From Sphingobacteriales bacterium (GTDB lineage: Bacteria > Bacteroidota > Bacteroidia > Chitinophagales > CAIOSU01), in assembly GCA_027483645.1 (NCBI GenBank), contig JAIXUD010000022.1, positions 62,001 to 126,000 of the forward strand: 64,000 nt of DNA. Direction: 5' to 3'. Of this stretch, positions 1-6,114 are shown piece after piece. A program made the position numbers and the translations under genes. Position 1 is the stretch's first letter; the number at the start of each line of letters is the position of its first letter. The notes under the pieces were generated by a model. That model made no database searches, was not told where the DNA came from, and was given only the letters and a program-made list of their open reading frames with translations.

Positions 1-998
1 TGAAAAATAATGTCCTGTTTTGGTAAGAAGTAGCCATATCTTATTTGTGCAATAGTAGCATGGGTTTGGCTTTTGGAATCTATGATCGGCAACTTAGATT
101 TATAGTAGATTTCATCGAATTTATAAGTGCTTTCAAAGTATAGTATATGCCTGCTGGGTTTAAGCAAATTTCTAGTTTCAAGTTTTACCAAGCCAAGCCA
201 ATCCGATTGGTTTTGAAAGCTGTTTGCACTTAACATTGTTGGAGGAATCTGCCGATCCGTTTTAGAAACAAAAGACATTATGTTAAAATGTTTGCTGTAC
301 AATTCCGCAATTGCAGCATACTGGACAAAATTGGCATATTGTTGTTTCTGGATTGGTTCACCAAACAGAGTAGTGTTCCTAAATTCAAAATCATTGCGGG
401 CTCTTCTATATAGAAAACCAATTTTACCGGTTAGCTTGTCTGTTCTTGCACTTAGTTTTAATGCAGTATTGTGCGTTCCAAAGCTTCCAACTTCATACCA
501 TGCCAATCCAGATAATCCTTTCGGAGGGGGTATCGGAATGCTGCCAACATTAATCGCTCCGCCAAAACTACCACTGCCAGCTTGTATTGTGTTCCCACCC
601 AGAGAAACTGATGCCCCATCAAAAGCACCCATAGGCAGGTTCGTTAAATCAATAGTACCATTCATGCCCGAATTCATTGGAATGCCATTCCAAAAAACCT
701 TGGTTTGTGAAGCACCCATACCCCGAAGTCCTGTAGTGGCTAATGCCCCAGGTCCATATGATTTGATATATACGCCTGTGTTTTCTTGAAGTAAATTTCC
801 TAACGAACTAGATTGGTAGTAGACCTTATCCGTTGAATCAATAATTTGGATGTTAAAAGGATTACGAAACACTATCAGCTTAACACTATTAGAACTCACC
901 TCCACTGTATCAATCCGTTGAATGCTATCCAACGGCACCTGCCCGAACGCGGTAGTGCAGCACAACATCAATATGATATGGAGCCAAGCGATTCTCAT
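1..998 (-). CDS. btuB: BtuB-like TonB-dependent outer membrane receptor, partial (C-terminus beyond window)
   Basis: About 332 N-terminal residues are visible. An ATG at 998 opens a signal peptide (MRIAWLHIILMLCC then TAFGQ) followed by a TonB plug domain: LGNLLQENTGVYIKSYGPG, the LRGMGASQTKVFWNGIP segment, and a glycine-rich GGN..QAGSGSFGGAINV stretch, then the first barrel strands. This arrangement is typical of the cobalamin receptors of Bacteroidota. The start overlaps the stop of the preceding gene as ATGA (995-998), so the two are translationally coupled. It is the fourth gene downstream of a cobalamin riboswitch, which supports B12 as substrate; the sequence alone only proves a TonB receptor. 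Confidence 0.85.
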   Translation of the reverse strand, partial: MRIAWLHIILMLCCTTAFGQVPLDSIQRIDTVEVSSNSVKLIVFRNPFNIQIIDSTDKVYYQSSSLGNLLQENTGVYIKSYGPGALATTGLRGMGASQTKVFWNGIPMNSGMNGTIDLTNLPMGAFDGASVSLGGNTIQAGSGSFGGAINVGSIPIPPPKGLSGLAWYEVGSFGTHNTALKLSARTDKLTGKIGFLYRRARNDFEFRNTTLFGEPIQKQQYANFVQYAAIAELYSKHFNIMSFVSKTDRQIPPTMLSANSFQNQSDWLGLVKLETRNLLKPSRHILYFESTYKFDEIYYKSKLPIIDSKSQTHATIAQIRYGYFLPKQDIIF

Positions 999-1369
999 TC
1001 AGCCACTATAATCTTTTGGGTAAATGTGCCTTCCACAGTGCGCAAGATACCGATGCATAAACCCAAGTTGGTAACGGGTATAGGTAACTGCTGCGCAGGG
1101 GTTTCAAAGGTTTGGGTGTAAATGATTCGACCTGTTAAATCCACCAGCGTAAACTCACCCGCAACAGGGCTGGTGAGGTAGATGTTTTCGCCAGCTTTGG
1201 CTAGAGATGGGTAGATGTAGTAGCCTTCGTTTGTAGTTAATTCGTTTACGGTTACTTGGCGCAATTGCAACTCGCCCAGCGCATGGCCATCGCCGGGGCC
1301 GCCGGTGTAAGCGGTTTGGGCGGTTGCCAAATAGGAAATGTGAAATAGGAGATAGGAAATCACAAACAC
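995..1369 (-). CDS. Short secreted protein with T9SS type A sorting domain
   Basis: The open frame extends up to 1693, but its first 108 residues are the translation of a dispersed repeat (1385-1651). I place the start at GTG 1369 (or GTG 1363), giving about 124 residues: a signal peptide ending LATAQ, a short mature part with a GGPGDG motif, and a C-terminal sorting domain of about 75 residues (YYIYPS..., GEFTLVDLTGRIIY, ending FTQKIIVAE). The mature part is so short that the protein is little more than a secretion tag plus the GGxGDG motif. It is coupled to the downstream TonB receptor by an ATGA overlap. Function unknown; a surface accessory role in cobalamin uptake is inference from position only. 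Confidence 0.7.
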   Translation of the reverse strand: MFVISYLLFHISYLATAQTAYTGGPGDGHALGELQLRQVTVNELTTNEGYYIYPSLAKAGENIYLTSPVAGEFTLVDLTGRIIYTQTFETPAQQLPIPVTNLGLCIGILRTVEGTFTQKIIVAE

Positions 1370-1384
1370 CTTTCCAAGATACCT

Positions 1385-1651
1385 GTCATTGCGAGGAATG
1401 AAACGTAGCTTTTCGCGAAGTTGAATGACGAAGCAATCCCATGCTTGGCGGTGTGAATTAGTTGATTTGGCGGTTGTTGGTGGGTTGTGCTCCTTGACAG
1501 AGGATGATTGCCAAGGCAGTAATCCCCTGAGTTGAGAGGTGAAACGAACCAACCGCAATGGTTGGCGCACATCATGCTTCGTAGCAGGGGATTGCCGCGG
1601 GGCATTATAGCTAAGTAGGGACTGCAACATTAAGTAGCCCCTCGCAATGAC
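1385..1651. repeat. MITE-like element with GTCATTGCGAG termini (copy 1)
   Basis: The stretch begins GTCATTGCGAGGAATGAAAC and ends CTCGCAATGAC, so its ends are inverted copies. The first ~55 bp resemble, in inverse orientation, the right end of the element at 3238-3428 (shared ATAGCTTTTCGCGAAGT-like and GAAGCAA motifs). No transposase is encoded. It fills most of the gap between the SUMF1-like gene and the short T9SS gene, and on the minus strand it is open in the frame of the latter, which makes that gene look longer than it is. Confidence 0.75.
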
Positions 1652-1729
1652 GGCGTTAGTTAATGCTTTGGTTATTGGTTTATCCTTTCGCATTTTACGT
1701 TTTCATATTTCTCATTACATATCCCATAT

Positions 1730-3217
1730 TCACCTTACCCCTCTCCCCCCGCCAGTATTCCTCCTACCAGTAGGTACCAACCCTATATAAAATCTATCAC
1801 TCACCGCAAGGTCTCTAAAATCGGGTAGGATGCCGCTGTTCCAGCCGCCGCCGCGGTGGCCGGCGCCTAGGGCATCGGTAGCTGGCCAAGTATTGGTATT
1901 TGCATTGCCGTCGGTGGTAAGGTTGCCGTCGCCGGTGGCGCCGTTATAGTTTAATCCTGTAGTGTTGGTGGTGGTTATTACCAGCTCCCAAAGGTTGCCG
2001 CTTAGTTCTAGTGCACCGTAGTAGCCAGCACCGATGGTGAGGCGCGTGCTGGTGTCGTTACCAGCAAAGCCACAACGCAATGCACCCTGCACGCCTGCAT
2101 ACCCGTGGCTGGCCAAGCCATAGCCCGTAGACACGGCATCGGTTACGGTTTCGTTATCCAAGCCATCATGGGCCAGCGTGTTGGCATCAACTATCAAGGG
2201 GGTGCCCCAAGCAAACTCCCCGGCTACGGGCGGTGCCGGGCCGCGGGCGGCTTTTTCAAATTCCAGTTCCGTCATCGGGCGCAGTGCCGCCCAGTCGAGC
2301 CAAGCGGCCACATCGTTCCAGTTCAAGAAGTTGCAGGCACGGGCTTGGCCGTCGTCGGTGCTGTTGGGCGGGTTGGTAGTGTTGGCATCGCAAATATACA
2401 CCGCCGGGGTAAACCCATTGGCCGATTTACCGATGCGGATGCCATTACGGTTCGCATTGAAGTTAGCCAGTGCCAAAGTACCTACTGCAGCCATTGGCGC
2501 GGCGGCGGTACGGGTAGTTTGTTGGGCAACACTCAAGCAATTCAAAAAGTCTACATACTGCTCTTGGCTTATCTCATACTTCATGCAATAGAAACCACCA
2601 TACCCTTTCGGGAAAGCCGCAGGTATATTGCCTGCAGGCGGCTCTTCATTGGTGTTACTTAGTTGGGTAGGGCCAGTGCCAATGATTAGCTCATTTTCGC
2701 TGGTAATCAATAATGGCCCCCGGTCATTGCCTCTACCTAGCGCATCGAAGCTGGTACTATCGCCCAGCGCAAACGGACTTTCGGGCACATATACCATCTC
2801 CACCCCAAGAACCTTGATGGCACAAGCGTCAGCGGGCAAGGGGTTTTGCAGCTTTAGCGTAACGGTGGTGGTGCTTACATTCCCGGCTTGCGCATCGCCA
2901 CGGCGGATAAACACCCCCTTTCCATCCGCTACGGCTTCTATGGCCAAAGGCTGACCAATGGTGTGGTCGATTACTTGGCTACTTACATCGGCATGGCCCC
3001 AGGTGTGGGCGGGGTAGTGCACCTTTACAAACACCCATACCGCATCGTGGTTGTAAGGTTCGGCCACACTATCCAAGTCCCAAGCATTATCCCAAGCAAT
3101 GTCAAACTGTATGGTTTGGTAGTCTACTAGTTGCAGGTTGGTTATGCGCACATTGTTGGCTAGTGCCGCCAATGGCAGCACTAGCAACAATGTGAGTATG
3201 TGGAGGAGTATTTTCAT
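1730..3217 (-). CDS. Secreted SUMF1/formylglycine-generating-enzyme-fold protein
   Basis: 495 residues. Residues 1-20 form a signal peptide (ending AALA). Residues ~21-150 are a beta-rich N-terminal region with DIAWDNAW and VWVFVKVHY segments. From ~185 to the end lies a SUMF1-like domain: YCMKYEISQEQYVDFLN, CNFLNWNDVAAWLDWAALR, RPMTELEFEKAARG, ALELSGNLWE, GHRGGGWNS. The end reads RRNTGGGRGVR, where active FGE enzymes normally carry a GFRC-type segment; I see no equivalent cysteine, so catalytic FGE activity is unlikely. It sits between the BtuG-like gene (227 bp upstream, a MITE-like repeat) and the short T9SS gene. Substrate and role are unknown. Confidence 0.85.
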   Translation of the reverse strand: MKILLHILTLLLVLPLAALANNVRITNLQLVDYQTIQFDIAWDNAWDLDSVAEPYNHDAVWVFVKVHYPAHTWGHADVSSQVIDHTIGQPLAIEAVADGKGVFIRRGDAQAGNVSTTTVTLKLQNPLPADACAIKVLGVEMVYVPESPFALGDSTSFDALGRGNDRGPLLITSENELIIGTGPTQLSNTNEEPPAGNIPAAFPKGYGGFYCMKYEISQEQYVDFLNCLSVAQQTTRTAAAPMAAVGTLALANFNANRNGIRIGKSANGFTPAVYICDANTTNPPNSTDDGQARACNFLNWNDVAAWLDWAALRPMTELEFEKAARGPAPPVAGEFAWGTPLIVDANTLAHDGLDNETVTDAVSTGYGLASHGYAGVQGALRCGFAGNDTSTRLTIGAGYYGALELSGNLWELVITTTNTTGLNYNGATGDGNLTTDGNANTNTWPATDALGAGHRGGGWNSGILPDFRDLAVSDRFYIGLVPTGRRNTGGGRGVR

Positions 3218-3237
3218 AGAGACTAATTAAAAACGAC

Positions 3238-3428
3238 CGTCATTGCGAGGAGAGACTTTGCGAAGCATAGGACCGCCGAAGCAATCCCTTGCAATGAAAA
3301 ATAATGTACGATGACTATTGAACCAATCACACAACACCGATAGCATAGGGATTACTGCCAGGGCAGTGAGAAGAGTTGCTTCGTTATTCCACTTCGCGAA
3401 AAGCTATGTTCCATTCCTCGCAATGACG
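3238..3428. repeat. MITE-like element with CGTCATTGCGAGGA termini (copy 2)
   Basis: Perfect 14-bp terminal inverted repeats, CGTCATTGCGAGGA at 3238 and TCCTCGCAATGACG ending at 3428. Inner parts of both ends are also loosely palindromic. It is a relative of the element at 1385-1651 and occupies nearly the whole gap between the SUMF1-like and BtuG-like genes. No coding capacity. Confidence 0.8.
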
Positions 3429-3444
3429 TTCAATTTTCAAGTTC

Positions 3445-4719
3445 CTACTGCTTCACCACCTTCTGCGTAAACCTACCATCAGCACTTTGCAATAGGTATA
3501 GGCCAGGTGCCAAGGTGCTTACGTCCATAGTGGTTAGCATTCCCGCTTCAACGGTTATGGTTTGCAACGTTCGGCCAGTTAAGTCTCTTATCATCATCGT
3601 TTGGGCGCTGCTACCGGTATGGCGTATGCTTAATAGGTAGTTAACTGGGTTTGGGTATACGCTCACCTGTTGGGTCGCTACTTCGTTTACACCTACGGTT
3701 ACTTCATATAATAGCTTGATGGCTTCTGGCGCGTAGCCTACCAAAAAGGTATCTATAGCACTGCCCGTCCTATCAAACACAATACCACGGGTATAGGTGG
3801 TATAATCGGTTTGGCTTACATAAAAGTTGCCGCTGATGGTATCGTAGGCAAATGCGGTAACTAAGGTGTCAACTATACTAGTATCAATAAAGGTGAGGTT
3901 GAAAAGGTTAAAGCTGGCAATTTTATCATTGAAAACGCCAAACAAGGTATCATCCACTATTTGCAGCAAGGTACCATAACCGCCCTGCACATCCGCAGGA
4001 ATGGGGGATTGTTGCAAGTTGCCGTTTGATGGGGTATACAGCGTAACTACATCAGTTGCACCACCTACACCTAATACGGCATCTTTAAAATAAAACAAAC
4101 GGCCAATGTCCGAAACGTTATCGCCCAGCGCGGTGCCCGCAAATGTACCTGTAGGCAAGTGTACCTTGGCAAGGTAGCCGGCAGAGTCGCTAAAGTTAAC
4201 ATCATCGTAGTTTTGCGATAGATAGGCCGTGTCGCCCACTATTACAATACCTTTTACACCACGCTCAATTTGTGGCACTACATAGTCCAGCGTTAAGTCG
4301 GTTTTGTCAAACACGTATAGGTTGCTGTCTGCTTGGCCATACCAGTTGCCCACCAGTAGTTGGTTTTGGTAGAGCGCCATGGTGTAGGTGCTAGCGCCTG
4401 GGAAGCCAGCCTTGGCAACCTGGCTAAAATCGCTCAGGCGAATTTTTACCAGCGAATCTTCAGCGGCTATGTAGGCAAAATCGCCTTCTATTAACAGGTC
4501 TTGTATGCTTTGGCTGTGGATGGTATCGCTAATGCGGGTAGTGGACAATATTGGGTTGTAGCCAATAAGCGTAATGTCTTCTTGCGGGTTGCCGTATTGG
4601 CCGCCATTAAGTATCAGCACCTCTTTGAGGTAAGGCTTGGTAGTTTGCGCCGTTGCGAAATTGGTCCACAACACAGCTGCCAGCAGTACAAGGGTTAGTT
4701 TGAGATGTTTGGATCCCAT
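3445..4719 (-). CDS. BtuG-like surface beta-propeller with T9SS type A sorting domain
   Basis: 424 residues from ATG 4719; the frame runs further upstream but only by reading into the riboswitch. A signal peptide ends NFATAQ. Residues ~30-340 hold repeated blade-like segments (for example YIAAEDSLVKIRLSDFSQV, LLVGNWYGQADSNLYVFDK, AYLSQNYDD, GYLAKVHLPTG, LFGVFNDKIASFNL), as in YncE/DUF5074-type propellers. Residues ~354-424 are a sorting domain (VYPNPVNYLLSI ... GLYLLQSADGRFTQKVVKQ). It is the first gene after a cobalamin riboswitch. In Bacteroides, BtuG is a propeller lipoprotein that binds B12 with very high affinity on BtuB; here the surface anchor would be supplied by T9SS instead of a lipid. 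The B12-binding role is inference from fold and riboswitch. Confidence 0.75.
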   Translation of the reverse strand: MGSKHLKLTLVLLAAVLWTNFATAQTTKPYLKEVLILNGGQYGNPQEDITLIGYNPILSTTRISDTIHSQSIQDLLIEGDFAYIAAEDSLVKIRLSDFSQVAKAGFPGASTYTMALYQNQLLVGNWYGQADSNLYVFDKTDLTLDYVVPQIERGVKGIVIVGDTAYLSQNYDDVNFSDSAGYLAKVHLPTGTFAGTALGDNVSDIGRLFYFKDAVLGVGGATDVVTLYTPSNGNLQQSPIPADVQGGYGTLLQIVDDTLFGVFNDKIASFNLFNLTFIDTSIVDTLVTAFAYDTISGNFYVSQTDYTTYTRGIVFDRTGSAIDTFLVGYAPEAIKLLYEVTVGVNEVATQQVSVYPNPVNYLLSIRHTGSSAQTMMIRDLTGRTLQTITVEAGMLTTMDVSTLAPGLYLLQSADGRFTQKVVKQ

Positions 4720-4801
4720 TGCTTTTAAATTTTTGAGGTTAAAAGAATGGGGAGTATTAAATACTGGAATAGAACACCCAGGTAGACAGGGGGCCGCTAC
4801 T

Positions 4802-4827
4802 CCGGGCCCTTCTCCCCGAGGGCCCGG
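4802..4827 (-). promoter_or_regulatory. GC-rich hairpin downstream of the riboswitch aptamer (possible expression platform)
   Basis: Arms CCGGGCCC (4802-4809) and GGGCCCGG (4820-4827) with a 10-nt loop lie 7 nt beyond the aptamer and about 80 nt before the ATG at 4719. There is no following T-run, so it is not an intrinsic terminator; a role in translational or pseudoknot control is inference. Confidence 0.45.
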
Positions 4828-4833
4828 GAATAA

Positions 4834-5043
4834 GATGTGGCATAGGCAGGTCTTCTGGCTCGTTCTGCCTTGGCCGCCTTCCCATCGCGCTTTGAAACGC
4901 AAAAGTGGCATATTGGCCAAGGTGTATGGTTGGTTTTTGTCTAGAATATTACCAACCAAATGAACTTACAGCAACGGGGATTGCTCCGGATTTGCACCGG
5001 ATTCCCTATTAAGTCTCGCTGGAGGCGAAACACCTATAACATC
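4834..5043 (-). promoter_or_regulatory. Cobalamin (vitamin B12) riboswitch aptamer
   Basis: On the minus strand the 5' side reads TATAGGTG..., then TTAATAGGGAATCCGGTGCA, AATCCGGAGC, CCCCGTTGCTGTAAG, and near the 3' end the B12 box AGCCAGAAGACCTGCC (4860-4845). A terminal P1 helix can form between GATGT (5043-5039) and ACATC (4838-4834). These are the conserved blocks of cobalamin riboswitches. It lies 115 nt upstream of the BtuG-like gene and would repress the operon when adenosyl- or other cobalamin is bound. Confidence 0.95.
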
Positions 5044-5132
5044 GTAATCCGAGGGTAAAGATAGAAAAAATAGTAACGAGTTAGGTACTTCGATTACGCT
5101 GTCAATGACATAAATAGCGTTGTGAAAAATGT

Positions 5133-5230
5133 AACCACTAAGAACACTAAGAAAAAAAGGCACTATGTTCACTAAGTACATAATACGGGCTTTGTGTTCT
5201 TTGTGATTTCCTTTGTGCACTTTGTGGTTA
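5133..5230. repeat. Dispersed inverted repeat, AACCAC...GTGGTT family (copy 1)
   Basis: Starts AACCACTAAGAACACTAAG and ends CCTTTGTGCACTTTGTGGTT, so the two ends pair. A second copy with about 90% identity by eye lies at 61671-61767, including the shared central TACGGGCTT(T/C)GTGTTCTTTG. An open frame of 94 codons here on the minus strand (4966-5250) is only the repeat plus the riboswitch read through. Confidence 0.8.
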
Positions 5231-5319: not shown

Positions 5320-6030
5320 TTATCCCTCGAAGTGCAGAGAGAAAGTAAGCGTACGAGAGAAAAGCTTATCGATGTTACCCGAATAAATAAGGTCTGGGTT
5401 GCGGGCGTGGAGGTTCATTACGCCTTGCGAGAACTTAATTTCGGGGCTGAAAATAAACAGCGGGAAGAAAATCTGTATGCCGAGGCCGTACTCAATAGAA
5501 AGGTCGTTGCGGAATACTTTGATTTGGTCGTCGGCACGGCGAGCTTTGGCGTTCGATGCCAAATCCAAGCTGTACTTCATGCCGGTGAGCACATAGAACT
5601 TCACATCGCGTATAGGCTGTGATTTAAAACGCACCGTTAGTGGAAAATCGAGGATGATGGATTCGATGGTTCGGCTCACCATAGAATCGCGCTGCTGAAA
5701 CTGCAACCGCTTATCGCCAAACACCAAGGCTGGAACAAACCGCAGGTCAAAGTAATCGCCCATGGATAGGTTGCTCACAATACCGAGGTTAAAACCAGGG
5801 CCGCGAGTACTGGTAATCGATTGGATAGTGTCGTTGTATACAAAGCTCTCGTCGTGCACTACCCTAAAGCTCTGCGTGTTGAACCCAAGGCTGATGCCAA
5901 AATAAAGGTTACGGTTGAGGTACCGGGTTTGGTTGCGCTGTGCACTGGCCTCATTCGTGAGCATCAAGAGCAGACACAGGAAAATACTTACTTTACTGAT
6001 ACGAAACGCACTTAATGAAACATGTGGCAT
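5320..6030 (-). CDS. porT: PorT/SprT-like T9SS outer membrane beta-barrel protein
   Basis: 236 residues from ATG 6030. The frame is open to 6078, but the preceding 16 codons lack signal-peptide character and overlap a low-complexity ATATGAAATGACAAATG stretch. A signal peptide ends NEASAQ. The rest is a beta-barrel with alternating strands (LYFGISLGFNTQSFRVV, GPGFNLGIVSNLSMGDYFDLRF, RDVKFYVLTGMKYSLDLAS, LSIEYGLGIQIFFPLFIFSPEIKFSQG) typical of the PorT family, which takes part in type IX secretion and gliding. Position right after ubiE (36-84 bp) is the conserved gene order in many Bacteroidota. Confidence 0.88.
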   Translation of the reverse strand: MPHVSLSAFRISKVSIFLCLLLMLTNEASAQRNQTRYLNRNLYFGISLGFNTQSFRVVHDESFVYNDTIQSITSTRGPGFNLGIVSNLSMGDYFDLRFVPALVFGDKRLQFQQRDSMVSRTIESIILDFPLTVRFKSQPIRDVKFYVLTGMKYSLDLASNAKARRADDQIKVFRNDLSIEYGLGIQIFFPLFIFSPEIKFSQGVMNLHARNPDLIYSGNIDKLFSRTLTFSLHFEG

Positions 6031-6114
6031 CCTCCTAAAGGATGTTTTGTGTTTCTCATTTGTCATTTCATATTTCATATTCAGTCTTGTGTCTTGCGTC
6101 TAAAAATCTTGTGT

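Follow-up and report, generated by a model that had tools for sequence, protein, structure and literature searches.

Organization of the operon and its riboswitch

The window analyzed here is a stretch of 64,000 nucleotides from a Sphingobacteriales bacterium (assembly GCA_027483645.1, contig JAIXUD010000022.1, positions 62,001–126,000), one end of which carries a putative vitamin B12 (cobalamin) operon on the minus strand. In the direction of transcription, it comprises a cobalamin riboswitch, a gene for a predicted β-propeller protein with a C-terminal sorting domain of the type IX secretion system (T9SS), termed T9PROP here, genes for an FGE/SUMF1-like protein and a small secreted protein, and a gene for a BtuB-type receptor. 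The FGE/SUMF1-like and small secreted proteins were missing from the preliminary description of this DNA.

The riboswitch aptamer (RF00174; positions 4828–5050, minus strand) is complete, with a cmscan score of 90.8 bits (the gathering score is 31.5), an E value of 3.5e-21 and coverage of model positions 1–189 of 189. This bears out the preliminary description, in which the first gene had been placed under B12 riboswitch control. A genome scan identified this riboswitch as the sole copy in the 4.27-Mb genome. It is separated from the T9PROP start codon by 108 nt, and the leader contains a predicted stem right after the aptamer (positions 4802–4827, minus strand), a hairpin that may serve as the expression platform. 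A stem at the same position is predicted in three of the five sister genomes checked (G001, G003 and G004), with a different sequence and the pairing kept. Immediately 5′ of the riboswitch, positions 5136–5226 contain short CACAAAGNACACNAAG repeats in both orientations; four matches to the repeat are found in the window (the mean expected by chance is 0.03).

T9PROP is a predicted T9SS cargo with a seven-bladed propeller

T9PROP (424 residues; positions 3445–4719, minus strand) is encoded by the first gene after the riboswitch, with an ATG start at 4719 and a stop at 3445. The TTG start given in the list of open reading frames (ORFs), at 4959 and inside the aptamer, was rejected. The ATG is credible because the genes of sister genomes begin at a homologous MG(S/Y). 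The N-terminus reads as a Sec signal peptide (MGSKHLKLTLVLLAAVLWTNFATAQ; positions 4645–4719, minus strand) that ends in FATAQ, does not contain a lipobox and includes an N-terminal helix in the structural model (residues 4–24). There is no cysteine in the entire protein. The C-terminus (residues ∼352–424; positions 3448–3666, minus strand) is a type A T9SS sorting domain, which scored above the cut-offs of both PF18962 (Por_Secre_tail; 34.7 bits, cut-off 27) and TIGR04183 (40.2 bits, cut-off 23) and was the only domain returned by the Pfam scan, in which no DUF4465 match was found. The T9SS sortase PorU is encoded in the genome (1330 bits). T9PROP thus has the Sec signal and sorting domain of a type A cargo in a genome with the sortase, and the earlier claim of a propeller targeted to the T9SS, and not a lipoprotein, is supported. 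The known cargos of this system, from which it differs, are for the most part enzymes, adhesins and virulence factors. T9SS cargos are either released or anchored to anionic lipopolysaccharide (A-LPS), and type A sorting domains are usually processed by PorU, with linkage of the cargo to A-LPS.

An AlphaFold2 model of T9PROP, built from ten sequences, has a mean predicted local distance difference test (pLDDT) score of 80.9. It comprises the seven-bladed propeller anticipated in the preliminary description (residues ∼29–340; positions 3700–4635, minus strand) and a separate C-terminal β domain formed by residues 352–424.

Relationship of T9PROP to BtuG

Searches with the T9PROP model indicated that the closest structures are those of BtuG, the propeller lipoprotein partner of BtuB, represented by BtuG1/2/3 from Bacteroides thetaiotaomicron and its relatives (BT1954, 3dsm, 8bai, 8bmx, 8p97). 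In Foldseek, BtuG chains were the top natural matches (E value of 9e-13; template modeling scores by target length of 0.70–0.75). In VIA-align, in which model residues 28–340 were matched, BtuG chains also led with Z scores of 27.2–29.4, followed by phosphogluconolactonase (27.0) and BtuK1 (26.1). Because the latter two score close to BtuG, the fold alone is insufficient to establish kinship, which rests instead on the agreement of sequence profiles. The T9PROP profile matched nine distinct BtuG sequences of solved structures over the whole propeller (E values of 1e-8 to 4e-10), and hhalign of the same profile against the lipoprotein BtuGs of the order gave a probability of 99.5, with an E value of 1.6e-22 at 16% identity. 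BtuG appeared only in profile searches; a single-sequence search against solved structures retrieved only the T9SS tail of 5jvk. By profile and by modeled fold, T9PROP is therefore a remote homolog of BtuG. The two also share a propeller of ∼300 residues and a location in B12 riboswitch operons with a BtuB receptor, and they differ in that T9PROP carries a Sec signal and sorting domain in place of the BtuG lipobox. BtuK1 (9s6c), a B12-binding propeller lipoprotein, resembles T9PROP as a non-BtuG propeller of a B12 operon but is lipid-anchored, and the T9PROP profile gave no match to it at an E value of 1.

A tree was built from 44 propellers with a T9SS tail and 27 that are lipoproteins; a branch with 100/99 support sets 43 of the T9SS-tailed sequences apart from the BtuG lipoproteins. 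The column of the lipidated cysteine is 96% Cys in the BtuGs; in the T9SS clade it is 81% Ala, followed by 93% Gln, which resembles a cleavage site for signal peptidase I. The T9SS clade also keeps a conserved set of its own, including N38, G40, A85, A86, G108, G181 and D305. The idea that T9PROP is a BtuG in which only the anchor was exchanged was rejected on the basis of this separate, supported clade and of the residue comparison, which together make T9PROP a separate paralog of BtuG.

The remaining T9SS-tailed sequence, a DUF5074 protein of genome G040 (locus L116), is placed on the BtuG side of the tree with a very long branch. The possibility that it links the two clades was considered but not adopted, given the branch length and unsure placement. 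The gene (L116:9528–11294, minus strand) is riboswitch-controlled, and its product combines a BtuG-side propeller with a T9SS tail and an HYR-like domain; here a BtuG-type protein appears to have switched to type IX secretion independently.

A DUF5074 search showed that the genome of the window also encodes a canonical BtuG lipoprotein (contig C7:131110–132231, i.e. L044:7110–8231), with the lipobox LAMTAC and a score of 442 bits against the BtuG profile. We therefore rejected the idea of a genome without BtuG. The BtuG gene lies on another contig, outside the riboswitch operon, and the genome scan gave no second riboswitch; the gene downstream of it looks, from its N-terminus, like that of the small subunit of methylmalonyl-CoA mutase. 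In sister genomes G002, G003 and G004, as well as in G005, G056 and G057, a BtuG lipoprotein gene directly follows btuB within the riboswitch operon. As the same genome has a canonical BtuG and its sisters have BtuG in the same operon, T9PROP is an additional component. The proposal that T9PROP stands in for BtuG, as an alternative way of building the same surface complex, did not hold up against the canonical BtuG of this genome, the BtuG genes in the operons of the sisters and the paralogous position of T9PROP.

Distribution and operon types

At the order level, the propeller is present in 20 of 61 genomes (E <0.001), nearly always directly behind a riboswitch. A pattern search of named assemblies gave nine loci with Chitinophagales, Sphingobacteriales, Flavobacteriales and other Bacteroidota labels, all nine with the riboswitch upstream. 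The alignment used for the class-wide search included the tail, and many of the 385 positive genomes matched by the tail only; counting only matches to the propeller part, about 60 of 395 genomes are positive. In 53 of these 60, a riboswitch lies upstream on the same strand and contig, in 50 of them within 500 nt. The propeller genes of G105 and G127 start at contig ends, so their upstream regions are absent from the data. The T9SS tail was present in all 42 complete riboswitch-linked propeller genes inspected.

Two types of operons can be distinguished. In type one, which includes the clade of the window and is marked by an NGG motif, the riboswitch is followed by the propeller, then by either a T9SS-tailed protein of the CSP family (described below) or the FGE-like and small secreted proteins, and finally by BtuB and the BtuG lipoprotein. 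Examples are G256, G197, G091 and G375 together with the sister genomes, and the arrangement recurs in several families. In type two, mostly with an NEG-xDY motif, the riboswitch is followed by the propeller alone or by the propeller and BtuF-BtuC-BtuD (G035, G047 and G059). A type-two variant has DUF6580 after the propeller, in some cases with a diphthamide synthase-like protein (G371, G084, G245 and G234). The DUF6580 membrane protein directly after the T9SS propeller is seen at L248:2997–3524, with similar genes in L254, L255 and L260, and may be a component of B12 transport.

In seven near-complete type-two genomes (G006, G022, G060, G035, G047, G059 and G053), the BtuG profile retrieved the propeller and weak propeller-repeat matches and no BtuG lipoprotein. 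The same seven genomes yielded no Bacteroides-type BtuB, with the best matches <80 bits. G012 resembles these genomes but is 80% complete. At locus L034, two cobalamin riboswitches are arranged back to back (1195–1399, minus strand, and 1530–1732, plus strand), one before the T9SS propeller gene and the other before a gene of the CSP family.

Other genes of the operon and its surroundings

The second gene (positions 1730–3217, minus strand) encodes a secreted FGE/SUMF1-like protein of 495 residues. Its fold model was unusable (mean pLDDT of 41.7), and its identification relies on PF03781 (33.5 bits) and weak matches to FGE profiles. As the motif at which FGE catalysis would be expected (RGGGWNSGILPDF) lacks a cysteine, its role is probably structural. 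The gene is found in the riboswitch operon of eight genomes of the order. The third gene (positions ∼995–1372, minus strand) is an ORF for a small secreted protein of ∼125 residues with a GGxGDGxA motif; it had no match in the Pfam scan, matched the local hidden Markov model of the T9SS tail weakly and has short orthologs in L028 and L108. A longer ORF extending 5′ of position 1372 was rejected as a gene, since it results from read-through of a repeat.

The last gene overlaps the third by 4 nt and is cut by the window edge at base 1, so that the window contains the N-terminal 332 residues of the BtuB-type TonB-dependent receptor (positions 1–998, minus strand; plug domain PF07715). The full receptor of 646 residues (L002:11059–12999) matches Bacteroides BtuB structures 8bmx, 8p98 and 8p97 with E values of ∼1e-46 (in two stretches) and 8blw with an E value of 3.6e-25. 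The last gene had been called BtuB-like, and judged by the full-length sequence its product is indeed a homolog of the structurally solved Bacteroides-type BtuB.

On either side of the FGE-like gene lies a repeat element (positions 1385–1651 and 3239–3427); the two are related, have inverted GTCATTGCGAGGA ends and are 92% complementary across 52 nt. The propeller gene of sister genomes is followed by a gap of just 88 nt. The repeats look like small non-coding mobile elements, similar to miniature inverted-repeat transposable elements, within the B12 operon. They break the run from the riboswitch to btuB in this species, and co-transcription is putative. Upstream of the riboswitch and outside the proposed operon lies a gene for the T9SS component PorT/SprT (positions 5320–6078, minus strand; NF052311, 193.5 bits, cut-off 125).

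Other T9SS-tailed proteins in B12 operons

T9PROP is not the only protein with a T9SS tail in cobalamin operons. With the local tail model, at least one T9SS-tail-type protein was detected in 36 of the 57 riboswitch operons of the order. DUF4465 (BtuJ-type) proteins with T9SS tails are encoded in cobalamin riboswitch operons (L105, L110, L118, L120, L123, L133 and L140), in several operons of the order beside BtuB. Like T9PROP, BtuJ/DUF4465 proteins are accessory to BtuB and BtuG, several of those in the order being T9SS-tailed, but they have a jelly-roll fold. DUF4465 (BtuJ) proteins bind B12 (PMC12751083, PMC13398666), and the T9SS-tailed ones are candidates for a second T9SS-delivered B12 binder. 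The delivery of B12 binders by the T9SS would thus have a parallel, since a B12-binding family is also T9SS-tailed in the riboswitch operons of the order.

A further T9SS-tailed family, labeled CSP and characterized by an NDFAVFENGF motif, recurs in B12 riboswitch operons (L030:3661–4680, plus strand; L034:8560–9519, reverse-complement numbering; L257:2698–3663, plus strand). Apart from the tail, its members matched nothing in Pfam, and they had no match in the PDB.

To our knowledge, Bacteroides does not possess a T9SS. In B. thetaiotaomicron, the accessory B12 binders that such operons encode are lipoproteins (PMC12751083), and the comparison is most simply read as type IX secretion of part of the same B12 kit by relatives that have a T9SS.

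Proposed function of T9PROP

We lean, with moderate confidence, towards the reading that T9PROP is a B12-repressed, T9SS-exported BtuG paralog that catches extracellular corrinoids and is accessory to the BtuB–BtuG uptake complex. By analogy with BtuJ, BtuH and BtuK in Bacteroides, it is best read as a B12 binder, either tethered to the surface or released, that would supply BtuB/BtuG; its corrinoid binding, secretion, anchoring and handover to BtuB are inferred. At low B12, the riboswitch would permit expression, and T9PROP would be exported by Sec. The T9SS would then recognize the C-terminal domain and carry the protein across the outer membrane, where PorU would cut off this domain and join the propeller to A-LPS, or the propeller would be released. 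The propeller would trap a corrinoid and pass it to BtuB, either directly or through the BtuG lipoprotein, for TonB-driven import, with the FGE-like and small secreted proteins of the operon as possible further surface partners.

Several observations weigh against this reading. The main reason for caution comes from the residue comparison. Most positions at which at least 80% of BtuGs agree are altered in the T9SS clade, with losses of N78, N100, Q109, N123, N124, K127, P148, T189, E190 and A336 (numbered according to the BtuG of the same genome; these are BtuG-conserved positions, not mapped corrinoid contacts), so corrinoid binding through the same contacts is unlikely. The propeller fold is also common, and phosphogluconolactonase lies merely ∼2 Z units below BtuG. 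Furthermore, the propeller genes of G222, G120 and G235 lack an upstream riboswitch, also at a relaxed threshold, and no riboswitch was found in the genome scans of G156 and G187. However, the riboswitch-less homologs (G222, G120/G156/G187 and G235) show no sign of another ligand. Homologs that combine independence from the riboswitch with a different ligand, which the preliminary description had named as evidence against a B12 role, were therefore not encountered.

A related possibility is that the propeller is shed into the medium or in vesicles as a diffusible corrinoid trap that is docked or taken up later. T9SS cargos can be released as well as anchored to A-LPS, and in one clade T9PROP is the sole recognizable surface protein of its operon. 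In B. thetaiotaomicron, vesicles carry BtuJ-type binders, which deliver B12 (PMC12751083). In the clade of the window, however, the presence of btuB in the same operon favors action at the cell surface, a freely diffusing binder would be vulnerable to theft, and a type A sorting domain usually leads to processing by PorU and attachment to A-LPS, so we consider release as the principal mode of action rather improbable. The loss of BtuG-conserved residues could also mean that the diverged propeller is B12-regulated without binding B12, as a scaffold, a protease-resistant spacer or a binder of another ligand such as foreign B12-binding proteins. There is precedent in the B. thetaiotaomicron operon members BtuK2 and BtuL, which did not bind cobalamin (PMC12751083). 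Conversely, the clade's own conserved residues and its almost exclusive link to the riboswitch suggest a conserved function tied to B12, and BtuK1 is an example of a non-BtuG propeller able to bind it; a non-binding role appears unlikely to us.

The seven type-two genomes that have the T9SS propeller and no BtuG lipoprotein detected by the BtuG profile raise the question of whether the propeller took over the role of BtuG as the lid of the TonB-dependent receptor. For the genome of the window this idea fails, as BtuG is present, and its sisters likewise retain the canonical lipoprotein. The BtuG-less genomes also lack a Bacteroides-type BtuB and hence an obvious barrel to cap, and the conserved loops specific to BtuG are lost in the T9SS clade. 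As a general explanation, replacement of the lid is thus very unlikely, while a replacement of BtuG restricted to the sister-clade genomes in which no BtuG lipoprotein is detectable is plausible. In those type-two genomes, binding at the surface may fall mainly to the propeller. Extending the preferred reading of T9PROP as an accessory corrinoid-capture protein, we tentatively suggest, as something possible but short of probable, an ancient, class-wide family of type IX-secreted B12-capture propellers in T9SS-bearing Bacteroidia. Its members would act beside BtuG in the clade of the window and, as the main surface B12 binder in the second clade, would feed a putative receptor.

Implications for B12 acquisition

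Among the Bacteroidota, Bacteroides is known to capture B12 at its surface. In the open-licence literature, to which our search was limited and which excludes subscription papers, we found no prior report connecting B12 uptake with the T9SS, and no T9SS cargo for vitamin uptake is described in the papers searched. T9PROP looks like a second B12-capture protein that has not been described before. The family is readily testable, as it offers a small soluble domain, clear riboswitch control and a colored ligand. If the proposed function is correct, the T9SS, which is usually discussed in relation to enzymes, adhesins, gliding and virulence, would also serve vitamin acquisition in environmental Bacteroidia, and this would partly account for the way in which a large proportion of the Bacteroidia of water and soil compete for a cofactor in short supply.

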